IMG/VR virus record: IMGVR_UViG_3300028840_001807
Span: 1-53,037 of that record
Strand: one strand, 5' to 3'
Source: a virus
DNA: 53,037 bases
The translations under genes and the position numbers were made by a program. Below, in pieces: positions 9,116-41,138 of this stretch. Every line of letters starts with the position of its first letter. Positions within the stretch are counted from its first letter, which is position 1. The notes beneath the pieces are model-generated. The model worked only from the letters and a program-made list of their open reading frames with translations. It made no database searches and was not told where the DNA came from.

Positions 9116-9180
9116 GCACAAATCTATCACCATTCGGACATGAAGGGATATAAACCTACATGACCGTATAAGGTGATGTG

Positions 9181-10203
9181 ATGAAACAGAAATATGAGTC
9201 ATACAATATGACACAGCGACTTCTCGACCAGATTAAAGTTATCAACGGTGTTGTTGAGTCCTATGCCAAACAGGGCTATAAATTGACATTGAGGCAACTG
9301 TATTACCAGTTGGTTTCCAGAGGAATAATCCCAAACAAAGACACCGAATACAAGAAACTATCAGATTTACTCGTAAAGGCGAGGATGTCTGGTCTTGTCG
9401 ATTGGGACGCGATAGAGGACAGGACAAGGGTTCCGAAGCTCGATTACTCAGTTGACGACATTCCAGATGCCATTGACGATACCATCAGTCAGTACAAGTT
9501 AGAACGATTACAAGACCAGAAAGTGTATATCGAAGTCTGGTGCGAGAAGGACGCATTGAGCAACATCCTTCGGAGAATGACCAACAAATTCCATGTCAGG
9601 TTGATGATAAACAAAGGATACTCAAGTGCAAGTGCAATGTATCGTGCGGCCCAAAGGTTCAGGAGACACGGAACAGGAAAGAAAAAGATACTTCTGTATC
9701 TTGGTGACCATGACCCTTCGGGACTCGACATGATAAGGGACATAGGCGATAGATTGAATACATTCGGCGTAAGACTGGACACACCAGACGGTTATCCGAT
9801 TCACTTGGGTATTACAAGAGAACAGGTCGAGGAATACGAACCGCCTGAAAATCCAGCAAAGATTACTGACCCACGAGCCGAGTGGTACATCGAAGAACAT
9901 GGAGAAAGTTCATGGGAAGTCGATGCTCTCGAACCATCAGTCCTAAACGAGTTGATCGAGAACGAGATATTCGAGTGGATTGATGAGGACAGGTTCAGGA
10001 ACAAAGTCAAGCAAGAGAACGTTGACAAGTTGAAACTTGAAAATCTCAAGGACTTGATCGATGACCTCGATGTAAATATCGAAGTGTCATGTGTGAACTG
10101 TTCTGAACAAGTCCAGGCCGATGACGATGATACTATATACGACATGGATGATGACAAATGGTTCTGTGGTAATGAGTGTCACGATGAATACAATGCCGAG
10201 TAA
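9181..10203 (+). CDS. Toprim-domain protein with C-terminal zinc finger
   Basis: The central part has VYIEVWCEKDALSNIL (Toprim glutamate) and about 60 residues later ILLYLGDHDPSGLDM (DxD), the metal-binding set of topoisomerase VI A/Spo11 and primase Toprim folds. The N-terminal 90 residues contain LRQLYYQLVSRGIIPN, a winged-helix-like segment as in Top6A-related phage proteins. I do not see the active Tyr with confidence. The C-terminus adds CVNC and CGNEC knuckles (zinc). It may nick or manage DNA during replication. ATG at 9181 follows AAGGTGATGTG; the GTG just before is in frame. Confidence 0.65.
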   Translation: MKQKYESYNMTQRLLDQIKVINGVVESYAKQGYKLTLRQLYYQLVSRGIIPNKDTEYKKLSDLLVKARMSGLVDWDAIEDRTRVPKLDYSVDDIPDAIDDTISQYKLERLQDQKVYIEVWCEKDALSNILRRMTNKFHVRLMINKGYSSASAMYRAAQRFRRHGTGKKKILLYLGDHDPSGLDMIRDIGDRLNTFGVRLDTPDGYPIHLGITREQVEEYEPPENPAKITDPRAEWYIEEHGESSWEVDALEPSVLNELIENEIFEWIDEDRFRNKVKQENVDKLKLENLKDLIDDLDVNIEVSCVNCSEQVQADDDDTIYDMDDDKWFCGNECHDEYNAE

Positions 10204-10223: not shown

Positions 10224-10374
10224 GGGTCTGTGGCTCAGTTAGGCAGAGCGTCGGGCTTTTAAGGTCATGTGGCGAGGTTCACTATCTCCGTTCCAAGCTG
10301 AATGATGAGAAACTGATTGACCCACATGATTTGGAGATACCCGATGGTCGCAGGTTCAAATCCTGCCAGACTCG
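10224..10374 (+). tRNA. tRNA-Lys(UUU) with 77-nt intron
   Basis: Acceptor GGGTCTG pairs with CAGACTC (10367-10373), discriminator G. The D arm is GCTC/GAGC. The anticodon stem TCGGG/CCCGA has loop CTTTTAA. The T arm GCAGG-TTCAAAT-CCTGC is canonical. Anticodon TTT is at 10258-10260. The intron, 10262-10338, interrupts position 37/38. A bulge-helix-bulge is visible: CTTT (10256-10259) pairs with GGAG (10333-10336), flanked by 3-nt bulges TAA and ATA cut after their second base. The intron is closed by TCATGTGG/CCACATGA. CCA is not encoded. Confidence 0.93.
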
Positions 10375-10399: not shown

Positions 10400-10536
10400 A
10401 GCGAGGTAGGGTAGTCTGGTAATCCCAATGGGCTCATGAGTCGGATGTGAAGTTTCTGCCCTGATCCTCCACTGATGACACCAGTCACCATGATTGAGAA
10501 ACCCATTAATCTGTGGTTCGAATCCACACCTCGCTA
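10400..10536 (+). tRNA. Initiator tRNA-Met(CAU) with 62-nt intron
   Basis: Acceptor AGCGAGG pairs with CCTCGCT (10529-10535), discriminator A. Its A1-U72 pair and the three G-C pairs (GGG/CCC) closing the anticodon loop CTCATGA are the marks of archaeal initiator rather than elongator tRNA-Met. T arm TGTGG-TTCGAAT-CCACA. Anticodon at 10435-10437. The intron, 10439-10500, again splits 37/38 with a bulge-helix-bulge: CTCA (10433-10436) pairs with TGAG (10495-10498), bulges TGA and AAA. The intron carries C/D-box-like motifs (see findings). Confidence 0.92.
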
Positions 10537-10538
10537 TC

Positions 10539-10696
10539 GGGTAACACCGACACATGGCAGGTAGCATGAAGTCCGGTCTATCTGAAGTCGCCGAATGCGT
10601 GTACTGGTGGCTATCGGGCGTGATGCCACATCTTCTTTGCTGGCTGGCATTAGAAACTCCAACAGAGCACGATACTACGGTTTGTCGGTGTTATCC
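10539..10696 (+). ncRNA. Unknown structured RNA closed by a 14-bp stem
   Basis: GGGTAACACCGACA (10539-10552) pairs with TGTCGGTGTTATCC (10683-10696), 14 bp with one G-U. Inside, GTAGCAT (10561-10567) can pair with ATACTAC (10672-10678), CCGGT with ACTGG (10573-10577/10603-10607), and TGATGCCA with TGGCATTA (10621-10628/10645-10652). No convincing reading frame. It begins 2 nt after the initiator tRNA and ends 1 nt before a C/D-box-like RNA, so it probably belongs to the same RNA precursor. I recognise no family. Confidence 0.65.
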
Positions 10697-10808: not shown

Positions 10809-10833
10809 ATCATTCGCATATGGATGTGATGTG

Positions 10834-11721
10834 ATGGCTGTAAAGAAAAAGCAAGATAAACTGGCCAAAGAGCCAGCAAGTGCCAATTTCAAGGCAAGGA
10901 TTGAGTGCAGTCTGCTTCGTGGAATTGCGTCAAGTATTTCCATGTTGACAGATGAGGCGAAGTTCAAGATTGGCAAGAAAAAGTGGGTTATACAGGTCGT
11001 TGATCCAGCACACATTGCCATGCTTGAATTGGAGATTGATGTCAGCAACTTCGAGGATTATATCTGCAAGAAAGAAGGTGTCGTAGGAGTTGACATAGAC
11101 AAATTGCATGACGCAATCAAGTACGTCAAGGACAGGGACATTGTCAGGATTGAAACCGACATTCTGAAAGTGACAAGAGAGAAAGAAGGTAAGGACGTTG
11201 TCGTGAACATCGACAGGATAAAGATTGACGATGGCCTATGTTCAAGACGTTTCAACCAACCAGACACGCTTGGAATGTCAGAACCGAAAGTTCCAAATCT
11301 GAATCTGAAGTCCAACTTCGAGATGACATGGGTAGATTTCGGTGACGCTTTGAAGCGTTTCCAGAAAATATCAGACCATGTCAAGATTGCGTGCTTCGAG
11401 GAAGGCATTGAACTGTCAGTCGAGGGCGACATCGACGAGTGCGTTGTCAAGAAGCCGAAAGACCTACTGGTATCATACGAGTTCGGCGGTGTCGAGGATG
11501 AAACAAGGAAAGACCATATCAGGTCATTGTACCCATTGGACTACATGACCAGTCCATTCAAGTCATCAAAGATGTCTGGCATGAGTCCGTTGTTCAAGCA
11601 CGAACGATGGCTCAACGTGTGCAAGTTCTCATTGAGTGATGACTATCCGATCAAGATTGAGGCCCAGAGGAACGGTGTCAGTATAACATATCTACTGGCC
11701 CCACGCATTGAGAGTGAATAA
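10834..11721 (+). CDS. PCNA-type sliding clamp (copy 1)
   Basis: After a lysine-rich lead of about 20 residues come VVDPAHIAMLELEI (as VDPANVAMV...L in archaeal PCNA), GVDIDKLHDAIKYVKDRDIV (the GVDL.kL..iL.r segment) and the C-terminal strand YLLAPRIESE, which is almost the canonical PCNA end. At 295 residues it is longer than the usual 245-250 because of the N-terminus and an insert near residue 230. It should form a ring that tethers polymerase or nuclease to DNA. It shares little with copy 2 at 14966. ATG at 10834 follows GTGATGTG. Confidence 0.85.
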   Translation: MAVKKKQDKLAKEPASANFKARIECSLLRGIASSISMLTDEAKFKIGKKKWVIQVVDPAHIAMLELEIDVSNFEDYICKKEGVVGVDIDKLHDAIKYVKDRDIVRIETDILKVTREKEGKDVVVNIDRIKIDDGLCSRRFNQPDTLGMSEPKVPNLNLKSNFEMTWVDFGDALKRFQKISDHVKIACFEEGIELSVEGDIDECVVKKPKDLLVSYEFGGVEDETRKDHIRSLYPLDYMTSPFKSSKMSGMSPLFKHERWLNVCKFSLSDDYPIKIEAQRNGVSITYLLAPRIESE

Positions 11722-33589: not shown

Positions 33590-34660
33590 TTACTCAGTGT
33601 AAGCGTTTATCTGTCCGTTGATGAGTATCCTCATCCAACGGGGCCTGATGACGGCGGGATAGGATTTCTCCCATGCCTGAACCCAGACATCGTCTGGCCT
33701 CTTCTGGAGCTTGTCGGTTCTTGTGTTCATTTTCCTCTTGTAAACCATTGTGCCGAACTTGGGCCCTTTCAGAAGTGCAATCGGGACGTTGTCATAGGTT
33801 GTGTCAGTGGTCAGGACATCCATTCCGGCTGCCTTTCCAATCTGACCGTTCATGATCCGCTGATCACCCATTGCCGAAGCGTGGATGAAGCGGTCATCCT
33901 TCAGGAGCATCCCCTCGGTTTCCTCGTCAACGACGACAGTATCGAAGGAGATGAACTCCTTCCTCCCAGCTGTCCGAAGGTTAACGAGGTCGTTGTACGA
34001 GACTACTCCCTCATCAACTGCCAGAACGTATTGTCTTTCGTCGCACCAGACGTATGTAATGGTCGAAGCACCGGGATCACCGCTGAACACTATGTGTCCA
34101 GTACGGTAATCCAGATTGTCCCACGTAACTGGGTTGGTCGTTGTGATCGAGACTACACCGAGAATAGCCTCGTCTGGGCCACCAGAGTTTGTTCCGTGAG
34201 ACAAGTCGAATTCGGTTGCTCCACCGGCGATCGCTTCGTCCTCGACAAGAGCCGCATTGAGAATTTCGTTCCAGGCTCTTGCGTCTGCCTTGATGGCCAT
34301 TGCGTCTGCAATGCCTTCGAGTTGCTCTTTGATCAAGTCAAAGTCAGCGTCATCGATTGCCTGTCCTGTGATCTCATCCCCACCACCGAAGTAAGTGGGT
34401 GTGACATCGAAGTTGTCCCATCTGGGTGAGACAGAAATATCTGGAACGTCATTGCCCTCGTCGAAGTCCTCTGCCACCATCCTGTTGACCTCGCGCCTCA
34501 AGGTCAGCTTGTCGTGTCCCTTCTGAACGGTTTTCTCACCGAGCAGTTGAAGCGAGACCATCTTGGGCATGGCGAGTTTGTTGATGATCTTGTCCAACTG
34601 AGGCTTGATACCGCTATCCAGAACATCTGTGCTGTCCGTGAACTCATCATATTCTTTCAT
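33590..34660 (-). CDS. Major capsid protein, HK97 fold
   Basis: 356 residues. An N-terminal helix leads to DKIINKLAMPKMVSLQLLGE, then NVPDISVSPRWDNFDV and a spine helix DDADFDLIKEQLEGIADAMA followed by ARAWNEILNAAL. EFISFDTVVVDEETEGMLLK and PIALLKGPKFGTMVYKRK are P- and A-domain strands of HK97-type capsids (phage P22/N4gp56-like coat sequences). It lies behind the scaffold-like gene with a hairpin (TTAACCG...CGGTTAA) in between. ATG at 34660 follows TTGAGGTG. Confidence 0.75.
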   Translation of the reverse strand: MKEYDEFTDSTDVLDSGIKPQLDKIINKLAMPKMVSLQLLGEKTVQKGHDKLTLRREVNRMVAEDFDEGNDVPDISVSPRWDNFDVTPTYFGGGDEITGQAIDDADFDLIKEQLEGIADAMAIKADARAWNEILNAALVEDEAIAGGATEFDLSHGTNSGGPDEAILGVVSITTTNPVTWDNLDYRTGHIVFSGDPGASTITYVWCDERQYVLAVDEGVVSYNDLVNLRTAGRKEFISFDTVVVDEETEGMLLKDDRFIHASAMGDQRIMNGQIGKAAGMDVLTTDTTYDNVPIALLKGPKFGTMVYKRKMNTRTDKLQKRPDDVWVQAWEKSYPAVIRPRWMRILINGQINAYTE

Positions 34661-34703
34661 GTTTTTCACCTCAATGTTTCCGTTACCTTAACCGTCAGGG
34701 CGG

Positions 34704-35350: not shown

Positions 35351-38335
35351 TTACTTGCAGACTCGTTTTCTGGTCTTTGGATCTGTGTAACACCGTTCAT
35401 GGATATCGGCTGCTGGTAGTTGAGGAGAAGTCGTCAATGCACCGCCAACGGCATCTATGTCATAGGCCCATTTCTTTCCGTCAGAACGGACTTCGAATTC
35501 CCTGAACAGTTCGGCAGAGATGTTATTGATGTTCTCATTTAATATTTCATTGACAGCGACAGGGTGAGTGATTATGGCTTTGTACATGACCGCACCCTTT
35601 CCGTGATCGTGGTTGATTGGGTCTATCCATGTGACATCGGCATCCCACCAGAGGTCAGATAGAATTCCAGCCTTCAGGTATTCTGTCTTGTCGTGATAGA
35701 AGTTGAAATAAACGAGAGACTCGCCTACTCTTGGCTTCAGCTTCATTTTCATTAGTTCAGGGTCATCGTAGTTCATTTCTTTGTGTTCGCCTCTGTGAAA
35801 AAAGACACCAGAAATCTCAACGGAGAATGGGTTGTCATCGTATCTCTTGACATTGTCCATCGAGAAATAGACATCGATCAATGACGAATGCTCTGACTCC
35901 TGTTTAGGTTTTTTTTTATCGGATTGTCTTTCGAGGATTGAACGTAGATTGGCAACTATCTGATCTCTCTGCTCTCTTGGAATTGGATTTCCATCCTTGA
36001 GTTTGACATGGGAGACTCTGGCTATCGCATTGCGAAGGTGAGGCAGGTCGATGTTGCCTCTCTCGTCTTTGTATGGAAGGTGTCGGAGAGTTCGGGGAAC
36101 GGTCTTGCCCTGTTCGTCCTTCTTTCCACCAGACTCGACTAGTGCGAAGGCAGAGTCGGGAAGGTCGTTGATGTATTTGGTATCCCAGACTTCATGGAGT
36201 CTGAATACAACGCCTTTGTGAGAGTGATCACCAGCTGAGGAACGGATATGGCTTCCAGTTGAACCAGATAGTCTGGCATGGAATTCAACGCTCTCCATGA
36301 GCTCGTTCTCGTCCTTTGCCTCTGTAATCTCGATCAATTTCATGTGTTCTGTCATGCCAACTACGTACTCAAGTGCCTGAAGTCTCTCATGCAGAGGTTT
36401 GTCCTTGACACATTGACCATCAATCCATCTCAAATCGAACACGGTTGAATACATTCCAGTGTCATTGGACTTGATCTTTCGGCCAAGATACTTGATGACA
36501 GGTTCCTCACCATAGAACTTTCCTTTGCGGTATCCTTGCGCCCAACCAGTGATGAAAGCGTCGATTGTGAAGTTATGTTCTATTCCTGCCAGTTCTTTTA
36601 TCAAGACTGGGAACTTGACAGAGCAATCTACTTCGTTCTCTCCGTCTATCGCATGGATGGTGACTTCATCCCCTCTCTTTCTGATGACGCAATGCAGACC
36701 ATCTGGCATTTCGTGGACTATGGCCGGGAACGTGAACGATTTGTTTATCTCGTTAATCAGGGTATCTGGCGTGTAGATGTTGTTATCGTATTCCTCTATT
36801 TCAAATTCGTCAATGGAATAGACACCTTCATGTTTCATCGGGAAGTTCGATACGAGTGGCCAGTTAGCGGTTGTCTTTTTGTCGCCTTTCTTGAGTGATG
36901 GGATGGAACGAGGTGAAGTTACCTTCTGGACATGGAATCCAGCAGACTTCATTTTCTTGATCCATTCAGGCTCGTCGCCTATGGAACAGATGAACTTGCC
37001 TTTGATATCCGACAGTATGTCGATGAATTCATCGAGGTCAACCTGTCCGATCTTGAATGACGCAGCCCTCTTGTCGCCAGACTGGTAATAGGGCGGGTCG
37101 ATGTAAAAGAACGTGTCTTGGCCATCATGTCTTTCTATCGAGTCCCTGAAGTCCTCTCTGGTTATCTCCGCGTTCTTCATTCTATCACGGATACGTTCAA
37201 AACGCTTTGGCTGATTGAGAGTGCAAGTGTGACCTTCGTCAGAGCTGTCGAATGACTTGCCCATCGAACCGAATGAGAATGTGGTCTTGTACAAGAACCA
37301 GTGAAGCCAATCCACCTTTGACGATGGTGCTGTCATGTTAACGATTTTCTTGTGGTATTTGGCAGAGCCAGTCCAGTTCTTCTTGACAAGTGTTCTGATT
37401 TCGGCATCGGTGATCGTTTTGAGAGATTTCAATGCCCTGACGTATTCTGGGTTGAGGTCGTTCAGGATTTCGGGGCCATCGGTTGGGTTCTTGGAAAAGA
37501 ATATCGTTGCCGAACCGCAGAACGGTTCAACGAACTTCGAGTGCTTCGGAATGAGTGAGATAATGCGTCTGGCTTGGAGCATTTGACCTGCTGGATGTCC
37601 AAAGGCTCTGGCAACAGCGAATTCATCGTATTCCATGTCTTTTCTCTGGCCAGGAACGGCAGAGCCAGACTTCTCCTTTCCAATGCCAGGTCTATCAAGC
37701 CGTCTCATATCTCCACCACATTCAGGGCATTTAATCTCCTCACAGTGTTTATCAGAGTCCATGATATATTCACAGGTAAGACATTCGCATTTGTACATCT
37801 CGAAGTCTTTCGGTGGGCCAGGTTGGGGTGGAATTCCGACAGGTGGTTCTTGAGGCGGTATCTTAACACCTCTGAGTGGCCTACGGAATTCGTGAGTGTG
37901 TCCATCAGTCTCTTGAATCTCCCACTCGACTATCTTGTGCCTATGGCCCAAGTCCTTTGAAGTCCATCCGTTGCCTTCGTCATCAACTTCAATCGCATGG
38001 TCATGTCCTACTTTCACTGTCGTTCTAATCTCCTCAAAGACTTCATGAGCCTCAAAATACGGATGTCTGCCCTGTTCTACAAGTGAAGTGTTGCCGACGT
38101 AGTTTGAAATGTATTTCTCATCGACAGACTTCACCTTCACCCATGCATTATCCTTCACTTTGTGTTCTCTGTTCCAGATAGACCAGGCTACGGCTTCAGG
38201 AGATCTGACCTTGCGCTTCTCTCTCTTTATAGCGTCACGGATCTCGGCCCACCTGTTCGCTTGGGCGAGTGTCAGAGGAATTCCTCTGTGCTTCTTTATG
38301 CTATCAGGCACTTCTGTCAAATTTGACCAGGGCAT
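35351..38335 (-). CDS. Multidomain capsid maturation protein with embedded DNA adenine methylase
   Basis: 994 residues. Residues 1-60 have a phage-type N-domain (IPLTLAQANRWAEI, SPEAVAWSIWN). Residues 180-206 are a zinc ribbon. Residues 240-480 are a D12-class N6-adenine methylase (VEPFCGSAT motif, DPPY at 413-416). Residues 500-690 look like a DNA-ligase adenylation domain (VFDLRWIDGQ, PLHERLQAL) in which the catalytic KxDG reads MPDG, so it should be dead. Residues 724-800 match DUF6582-type segments (LPDSAFALVE, LRHLPYKDERGNIDLPHLRN). Residues 806-994 resemble prohead protease ends (GGALTTSPQLPAA). It starts right at the portal stop. Confidence 0.65.
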   Translation of the reverse strand: MPWSNLTEVPDSIKKHRGIPLTLAQANRWAEIRDAIKREKRKVRSPEAVAWSIWNREHKVKDNAWVKVKSVDEKYISNYVGNTSLVEQGRHPYFEAHEVFEEIRTTVKVGHDHAIEVDDEGNGWTSKDLGHRHKIVEWEIQETDGHTHEFRRPLRGVKIPPQEPPVGIPPQPGPPKDFEMYKCECLTCEYIMDSDKHCEEIKCPECGGDMRRLDRPGIGKEKSGSAVPGQRKDMEYDEFAVARAFGHPAGQMLQARRIISLIPKHSKFVEPFCGSATIFFSKNPTDGPEILNDLNPEYVRALKSLKTITDAEIRTLVKKNWTGSAKYHKKIVNMTAPSSKVDWLHWFLYKTTFSFGSMGKSFDSSDEGHTCTLNQPKRFERIRDRMKNAEITREDFRDSIERHDGQDTFFYIDPPYYQSGDKRAASFKIGQVDLDEFIDILSDIKGKFICSIGDEPEWIKKMKSAGFHVQKVTSPRSIPSLKKGDKKTTANWPLVSNFPMKHEGVYSIDEFEIEEYDNNIYTPDTLINEINKSFTFPAIVHEMPDGLHCVIRKRGDEVTIHAIDGENEVDCSVKFPVLIKELAGIEHNFTIDAFITGWAQGYRKGKFYGEEPVIKYLGRKIKSNDTGMYSTVFDLRWIDGQCVKDKPLHERLQALEYVVGMTEHMKLIEITEAKDENELMESVEFHARLSGSTGSHIRSSAGDHSHKGVVFRLHEVWDTKYINDLPDSAFALVESGGKKDEQGKTVPRTLRHLPYKDERGNIDLPHLRNAIARVSHVKLKDGNPIPREQRDQIVANLRSILERQSDKKKPKQESEHSSLIDVYFSMDNVKRYDDNPFSVEISGVFFHRGEHKEMNYDDPELMKMKLKPRVGESLVYFNFYHDKTEYLKAGILSDLWWDADVTWIDPINHDHGKGAVMYKAIITHPVAVNEILNENINNISAELFREFEVRSDGKKWAYDIDAVGGALTTSPQLPAADIHERCYTDPKTRKRVCK

Positions 38336-39623: not shown

Positions 39624-41138
39624 TCATCTCCCTTTAGGCCGGGTAAAGCCCTTCGGTTTTGTTGTTCGAGGCCGATTGATTTTTCTTGGAACGATAGGTT
39701 TCAGTTCTCCCGGTTCCAGAGAGTCTTGTGGCCTCGTACAGAGGGCAAACCATGTCAGGGCGAGTGAGTCACCATAGTCGTCATGCTTGTTTCGTTGGTT
39801 TGGGGCTGCGACTTTAAATAGATTTCCAACCCATTTGGCCGTCAACGAGGTCATCTGATCCTCGAAGCGATAGCGTTCAACCCTGTCCACAGCTGGATAG
39901 GTGAAAGACTGGTTGACGATGGCCTTTCTCAATTCCTGCCACATGAATGACTGGATGTTCTTTTCCATCGGCACTCGTGCGACAGGGATGTGTTCAGGTA
40001 GGAAATCACTTATTCCTTCGCCGTGTAAAGTGTCTATGTTGACAACAAAGATATTGGGAAAGCCCTTTAAAATACTTTCGATGTCTGTTGCTTGAGTCTT
40101 GTAATCGTCACCTCTCCATTCTGCCCAGAGGTTGATGTGAGGCTTTCCGATCATGCTCATTATTGTCATCACTGTTGAATCATTTACTCTGGCTGGGTCA
40201 ATCCCAACGACTACTGGCTCATCATTCTGAAGTATCAGGTTGCCATTCTGAAGTTCAACTAGTTCCTCAATGGTGCAGAAGTTGGACGATACTGACACCC
40301 ATTCGAGCTCGTACTGAGTTTTGAAGTAGTCGGACTCTCGCCCATGCTTGTTCATTTCTTTCGTGACATAGATTTCATAATCTTTTGCGTACTTGTCCGT
40401 TGCCTCTCTAACGACATCTCGCCAATTGCTTACATAGATATTCGGGCCAGCACGACTTGAGATGTTGTAGAAGTGACCGAGTCGTTCAGGTGTTGGATTT
40501 CCAGTAAGGATACGAGTTCCGTTTGTTGCGGCGCACATCGGATAGATGGAATTGAGAAGTCTGGTGTCTGTGATGTTCTGCGCTTCTTCACAATAAGCGA
40601 GATCCAATGTCAATCGTTCTATCATGGCATTGATGGACGCTGTTTCACAATATATACGTGTGCCATTTGACAGCCATAGTTCTTCGGAATTGTTCTTTAT
40701 GGTCTTGATACCGAGATGGTCGTGCATGAAATGAGTGTCATGGAAGAACTTGTACATATTGAAGGCGTGGATGGCTTGAGAGTGTTTGGGGCCGAATATG
40801 CCTGCCTGAAAGCCGTCCTTCATCGGCTTGTATATTGTCGGAAGGGATGAAATGAAATGAAGTCCAGCACCAGGAAGTCCAGTGGTCTTTCCAGACTGTC
40901 TTGACAACATGACCACTATCTCAAGCCCGAGCCTGTTCACGACTGATTCTACAACTCTCCATGCTGGTCGAATTTGATATGGTCTGAGTTTGATACGTCT
41001 CCTGCCAGTATATCCACCATAGATACATGAGGCAAGAGTGAAGTTGTACAAATCCTCTGGCTTCAGTTCCTCAACGATGAACGGCTCACCAGTGGAACAC
41101 TTGTCGGCCATGTCCTGAAAGACTTCCTTATCTCCCAT
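39624..41138 (-). CDS. Terminase large subunit
   Basis: 504 residues. Walker A is VVMLSRQSGKTTG, Walker B is LDLAYCEEAQN, and coupling motif candidates lie in TRILTGNPTPER. The C-terminal RNase H-fold nuclease has VVGIDPAR, IFVVNIDTLHGEG and KHDDYGDSLAL as its three acidic stations. It packages DNA into the prohead. The basic C-terminal tail (KINRPRTTKPKGFTRPKGR) may bind portal or DNA. Confidence 0.9.
   Translation of the reverse strand: MGDKEVFQDMADKCSTGEPFIVEELKPEDLYNFTLASCIYGGYTGRRRIKLRPYQIRPAWRVVESVVNRLGLEIVVMLSRQSGKTTGLPGAGLHFISSLPTIYKPMKDGFQAGIFGPKHSQAIHAFNMYKFFHDTHFMHDHLGIKTIKNNSEELWLSNGTRIYCETASINAMIERLTLDLAYCEEAQNITDTRLLNSIYPMCAATNGTRILTGNPTPERLGHFYNISSRAGPNIYVSNWRDVVREATDKYAKDYEIYVTKEMNKHGRESDYFKTQYELEWVSVSSNFCTIEELVELQNGNLILQNDEPVVVGIDPARVNDSTVMTIMSMIGKPHINLWAEWRGDDYKTQATDIESILKGFPNIFVVNIDTLHGEGISDFLPEHIPVARVPMEKNIQSFMWQELRKAIVNQSFTYPAVDRVERYRFEDQMTSLTAKWVGNLFKVAAPNQRNKHDDYGDSLALTWFALCTRPQDSLEPGELKPIVPRKINRPRTTKPKGFTRPKGR

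Follow-up and report, generated by a model that had tools for sequence, protein, structure and literature searches.

tRNA genes are already known in archaeal viruses, and the locus considered here raises the question of whether such a virus may also carry an intact initiator tRNA whose gene is interrupted by an intron. The window analyzed is a 53,037-base IMG/VR virus record. Searching it against Rfam returned, above cut-off (29 bits for the tRNA model), two tRNA genes only, at 10224-10374 and 10400-10536, both on the plus strand and both interrupted. The second match extends exactly from 10400 to 10536 (48.0 bits; E value of 2.9e-7 for the window). ARAGORN in its default mode reported no tRNA in the window, and its miss of the gene at 10400-10536 is expected from the length of the intron. 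The features on which the analysis relies are as follows.

9178..10203, plus strand: phage-type DNA topoisomerase (PHROG 6247, E value of 6e-87)
10224..10374, plus strand: tRNA-Lys(TTT) gene with intron (Rfam tRNA, 55.2 bits)
10262..10338, plus strand: 77-nt intron at 37/38 of the tRNA-Lys gene (central helix CTTT/GGAG; loop after splicing CTTTTAA)
10400..10536, plus strand: predicted initiator tRNA-Met(CAT) gene with intron (Rfam tRNA, initiator model, class scores of the spliced form)
10438..10438, plus strand: base 37 of the mature tRNA as predicted, a G where the archaeal initiators used for comparison have A
10439..10500, plus strand: 62-nt intron of the predicted initiator gene at 37/38 (CTCA at 10433-10436 with TGAG at 10495-10498; bulges at 10437-10439, TG^A, and 10499-10501, AA^A)
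10831..11721, plus strand: PCNA sliding clamp, downstream of the tRNA pair (structure and phage-relative matches)
33590..34669, minus strand: probable major head protein (PHROG 1650 and others; weak, E value of about 1e-6)
39624..41138, minus strand: terminase large subunit (PHROG 2, E value of 1.5e-23)

The terminase, the weak match to a major head protein, and the phage-type topoisomerase together indicate a tailed virus (Caudoviricetes). The tRNA pair begins 20 nt past the topoisomerase stop codon, and about 290 bases in which no plus-strand open reading frame is listed lie between it and the PCNA gene. The best solved relatives of the PCNA are 3hi8 and 1rwz, entries from Haloferax and Archaeoglobus, respectively; among phages, its relatives belong to haloviruses and to a virus of Methanomicrobiales. 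The combination of an archaeal-type PCNA with two archaeal-type introns makes an archaeal host likely, and this host is probably a member of the Halobacteriota. Searching genomes for the D-arm sequence of the predicted initiator returned only two archaeal genomes with an identical D arm. Virus relatives were sought through three genes: the PCNA scan found none, the terminase scans yielded nothing beyond one contig of 7.25 kb, which lacks the tRNA region, and the loci reached through the topoisomerase shared no other gene with the window, so that no relative carrying the tRNA region emerged from these scans.

Two other elements of the window were observed in passing. The noncoding stretch at 10539-10696, between the predicted initiator gene and that of PCNA, can be closed by a 14-nt stem that is 93% complementary (GGGTAACACCGACA / TGTCGGTGTTATCC); it has a folding z-score of -2.7, matches no Rfam family, and may be an unknown structured RNA. 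A 994-aa open reading frame at 35351-38335 contains a stretch of D12-class adenine methyltransferase and also matches, weakly, a domain of ATP-dependent DNA ligases.

Archaeal initiators are defined by an A1-U72 pair and by three G-C pairs at 29-41, 30-40, and 31-39 of the anticodon stem (PMC6412873). The gene at 10400-10536 reads, 5' to 3', AGCGAGG TA GGGTAGTCTGGTAATCCC A ATGGG CTCATG^ / 62-nt intron / ^A CCCAT TAATC TGTGG TTCGAAT CCACA CCTCGCT A. In common with cellular archaeal initiator tRNA-Met, the encoded tRNA has A1, U72, G29-C41, G30-C40, G31-C39 (stem ATGGG/CCCAT), and A73, and all of its 20 stem pairs are Watson-Crick. The initiator covariance model scored the unspliced gene at 70.6 bits; the elongator Met and Ile2 models were silent at the locus, but the intron exceeds the span of these models and their silence carries no weight. 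Since intron length limits detection by full-length covariance models, the class assignment rests on the spliced form, which scored 54.9 bits against the initiator profile versus 7.1 bits for elongator Met and 8.5 bits for Ile2, with small reference sets of mostly Methanobacteria (seven initiators of archaeal type, plus three elongator Met and four Ile2 tRNAs, the last two sets from Methanobacteria only). Identity of the spliced form to the nearest reference was 77% for initiators, 59% for elongator Met, and 52% for Ile2, and the values for nearest cellular archaeal initiators lay at 77 to 79%. The anticodon CAT, common to the three classes, would fit equally an elongator tRNA-Met or a tRNA-Ile2 whose CAU is made to read AUA, but the class scores of the spliced form, the A1-U72 pair, and the GGG/CCC stem leave such an assignment with hardly any credibility. 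Judged from these sequence features, the tRNA is an archaeal-type initiator.

Comparison with the Methanobrevibacter initiator revealed an identical D-arm sequence and 21 differences, 14 of which are located in stems and correspond to seven double changes that keep the pairing, with no single change. Compensation of all seven changed stem pairs, with none broken, argues for selection and against decay. Unlike cellular archaeal initiators, the tRNA of the window is virus-borne, and is interrupted by a 62-nt intron; it also has A26, a variable loop that is altered, and G37 in place of A37.

The canonical archaeal tRNA intron is recognized by a strict motif consisting of a 4-bp helix between two 3-nt bulges (PMC4090602). 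The core of the motif in the predicted initiator gene is an exact 3-4-3 arrangement, in which the CTCA/TGAG central helix sits directly inside the ATGGG/CCCAT anticodon stem and is flanked by the bulges TG^A and AA^A. In shuffled introns, this helix occurred in register at a frequency of 0.006 (0.6%). Its inner helix, however, is weak, and the energy of the splice motif exceeds the free-folding minimum by 1.6 kcal/mol; the corresponding value for the genuine intron of the Methanobrevibacter elongator tRNA-Met is 2.1 kcal/mol, a comparison by which the motif of the viral intron would appear normal in this respect and no worse. That elongator gene (L104) resembles the gene of the window in the 37/38 site and in the pairing of CTCA with the 3' end of the intron, and differs in its elongator body, A37, and an intron of 37 nt. 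In the Methanobacteria sampled, the initiator gene is uninterrupted, unlike that of the window. The structure thus supports assignment of the 62-nt element as a canonical archaeal bulge-helix-bulge intron, which is predicted to be spliced. The possibility that the introns harbor a box C/D RNA was also considered, and was rejected: RTGATGA is mildly enriched across the window (59 occurrences versus 44.5 expected), and inspection by eye found no C/D layout.

The tRNA-Lys(TTT) gene lies upstream, such that two separate intron-bearing tRNA genes stand side by side. Its splice motif comprises the bulges TA^A and AT^A and a helix, CTTT/GGAG, that contains two wobble pairs and arises by chance in 3.6% of shuffles. 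Lysine accounts for 7.2% of the codons of the virus (348 AAA and 494 AAG), and this use of both lysine codons does not by itself argue clearly for codon compensation.

The strict splice register places a G immediately 3' of the CAU anticodon, so that the A37 typical of archaeal initiators would be absent; PMC6412873 does not list A37 among the defining features. The identical register yields A37 for the Methanobrevibacter elongator tRNA-Met and for the viral tRNA-Lys. Intron-free initiators with A37 were detected in 59 of 60 Methanobacteria genomes with a pattern that itself required A37, and archaeal tRNAs reading codons that start with A prefer a modified A37 (PMC7668247). An alternative splice at 36/37 that would give A37 is incompatible with the strict 3-4-3 register and is conceivable at most. 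G37 could reflect drift, adaptation, or an unusual splice; it may weaken decoding, and to that extent it could count against the explanation that we favor. Among 31 other viral contigs with initiator-type tRNAs, the CTCATGA loop with G37 was shared by one (L094), whose initiator-like tRNA (1936-2010) is located within an array of more than 20 tRNAs.

These results bear out what was observed in the sequence-only reading of the locus and support part of its interpretation; that reading had proposed an initiator tRNA at exactly 10400-10536 with an A1-U72 pair, a GGG/CCC anticodon stem, and a 37/38 intron. All of these elements are present, and the comparison with archaeal initiator and elongator Met sets that it had suggested gave the highest score to the initiator class. 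The viral context, now documented by the terminase and the archaeal-type PCNA, and the archaeal type of the intron also stood. Its description of a clean bulge-helix-bulge was accurate for the core of the motif and needs qualifying for the weak inner helix; it had overlooked both the G37 left by strict splicing and the neighboring tRNA-Lys gene.

How unusual such a gene is among viruses was addressed with two sequence patterns applied to IMG/VR. The pattern for the 5' half of A1-type initiators matched 31 contigs, and a simple script recovered a complete CAT tRNA in 30 of them; the tRNA of the remaining contig (L098) failed the script and is visibly an uninterrupted CAT tRNA. These tRNAs resemble that of the window in being virus-borne and in having a CAT anticodon and a GGG/CCC stem. 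Many of them display the bacterial mismatch at 1-72, and those of four contigs look archaeal (L005, L006, L007, and L086), including that of a 154.7-kb virus contig (L007), which has the A1-U72 pair. Virus-borne initiator tRNAs are therefore of an already known kind and are not rare, although they look uncommon in archaeal viruses. Introns were found in none of the 31 matches. The splice-motif pattern, used for a second intron-bearing CAT tRNA in IMG/VR, returned two loci, neither of which is a tRNA. The 5'-half pattern recognizes only genes that start with AGC and have GGG ahead of the loop, and either pattern passes over sequences that do not fit it; among the IMG/VR contigs searched with the two, an intron inside a viral initiator tRNA was seen only here. 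The view that a viral initiator tRNA is unusual in itself thus goes too far, whereas its intron-bearing form was not encountered elsewhere. Archaeal 37/38 introns do occur in other virus-borne tRNAs, namely, the tRNA-Ala(TGC) of HGTV-1 and the tRNA-Thr(TGT) of the 154.7-kb contig, the latter with a textbook splice motif, but both are elongators. The sole Met tRNA annotated in the region of HGTV-1 that was read is not an A1-U72 initiator.

Two further observations were made on the matched contigs. Four viral CAT tRNAs with a GGG/CCC stem (L074 at 3897, L082, L091 at 3974, and L096) have a long variable arm, a shape that normally characterizes tRNAs for Leu and Ser, and all are 85 to 87 nt in length. 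In another contig (L086, 1726-4457), an initiator-type tRNA, small open reading frames, and an HNH-endonuclease-like open reading frame lie between what appear to be two halves of a terminase gene.

We consider it probable (roughly 0.7) that the window derives from an archaeal tailed virus that encodes a structurally intact initiator tRNA-Met with a tRNA-Lys(TTT) beside it, both interrupted by canonical 37/38 introns, processed by the host, and sustaining translation. According to this proposal, the tRNA pair would be transcribed together with the neighboring replication genes, the introns would be removed by the tRNA splicing endonuclease and ligase of the host, host enzymes would add CCA and methionine, and host aIF2 would carry the viral tRNA to initiation. 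The presumed benefit, which is a hypothesis, is that initiation and lysine decoding could be sustained in cells where host tRNAs run short or fall to cleavage by the tRNases of the host. It is unlikely that the gene is instead a passively captured host tRNA, such as a copy or scar of an attachment site with no function for the virus. Two of the archaeal-looking viral initiator tRNAs (L005 and L006) belong to contigs with integrase genes and lie near them, like attachment sites, and G37 could be early drift; the gene of the window, however, is complete, paired, and embedded in a cluster of replication genes, no integrase was found among the window genes searched (a subset of the open reading frames), and the fully compensated stem pairs argue for selection.

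Cleavage by tRNases offers a more specific role, since initiator tRNA (by VapC) and tRNA-Lys(TTT) (by PrrC) are known targets (PMC10264068); PMC4105405 likewise describes action of VapC on initiator tRNA. The two tRNAs of the window are these two classic targets, and G37 falls within the loop in which phage tRNAs tend to carry changes predicted to confer insensitivity to tRNases (PMC10264068). The pair might thus be a resistant replacement, in which G37 would block a VapC-type toxin and the tRNA-Lys would counter a PrrC-type nuclease. This version is possible but rather doubtful, as the Lys loop CTTTTAA is the same as the common form and as G37 is so thinly spread among the other viral contigs. 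As a rule, moreover, tRNA-fMet is avoided by phages if the tRNase acts directly on its anticodon (PMC10264068), which cuts against simple replacement. An elaboration in which the loop with the anticodon would stay concealed by the intron up to splicing, and cleavage would be blocked by G37, such that initiation survives a shut-off by an archaeal host aimed at the initiator (and Lys) tRNA, is more speculative still. The sequence-only reading had proposed that the viral tRNA shifts initiation toward viral mRNAs with GTG and TTG starts. The sole point in its favor is that mechanical calls of open reading frames include such starts; the anticodon is an ordinary CAU, nothing in the sequence is selective for viral mRNAs, and G37 could alter the stringency of start-codon selection in either direction. 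We regard this proposal as very improbable.

There are precedents for initiator tRNAs carried by viruses and, separately, for introns in viral tRNAs; their combination was seen only here among the viruses searched. If the favored reading is true, this virus would rely on the tRNA splicing enzymes of its host to produce the tRNA that reads the start codon. The locus makes testable the idea that the tRNAs of archaeal viruses serve initiation in addition to decoding. It also makes testable the idea that anticodon-loop changes in viral tRNAs may serve to escape archaeal host tRNases, as proposed for phages.
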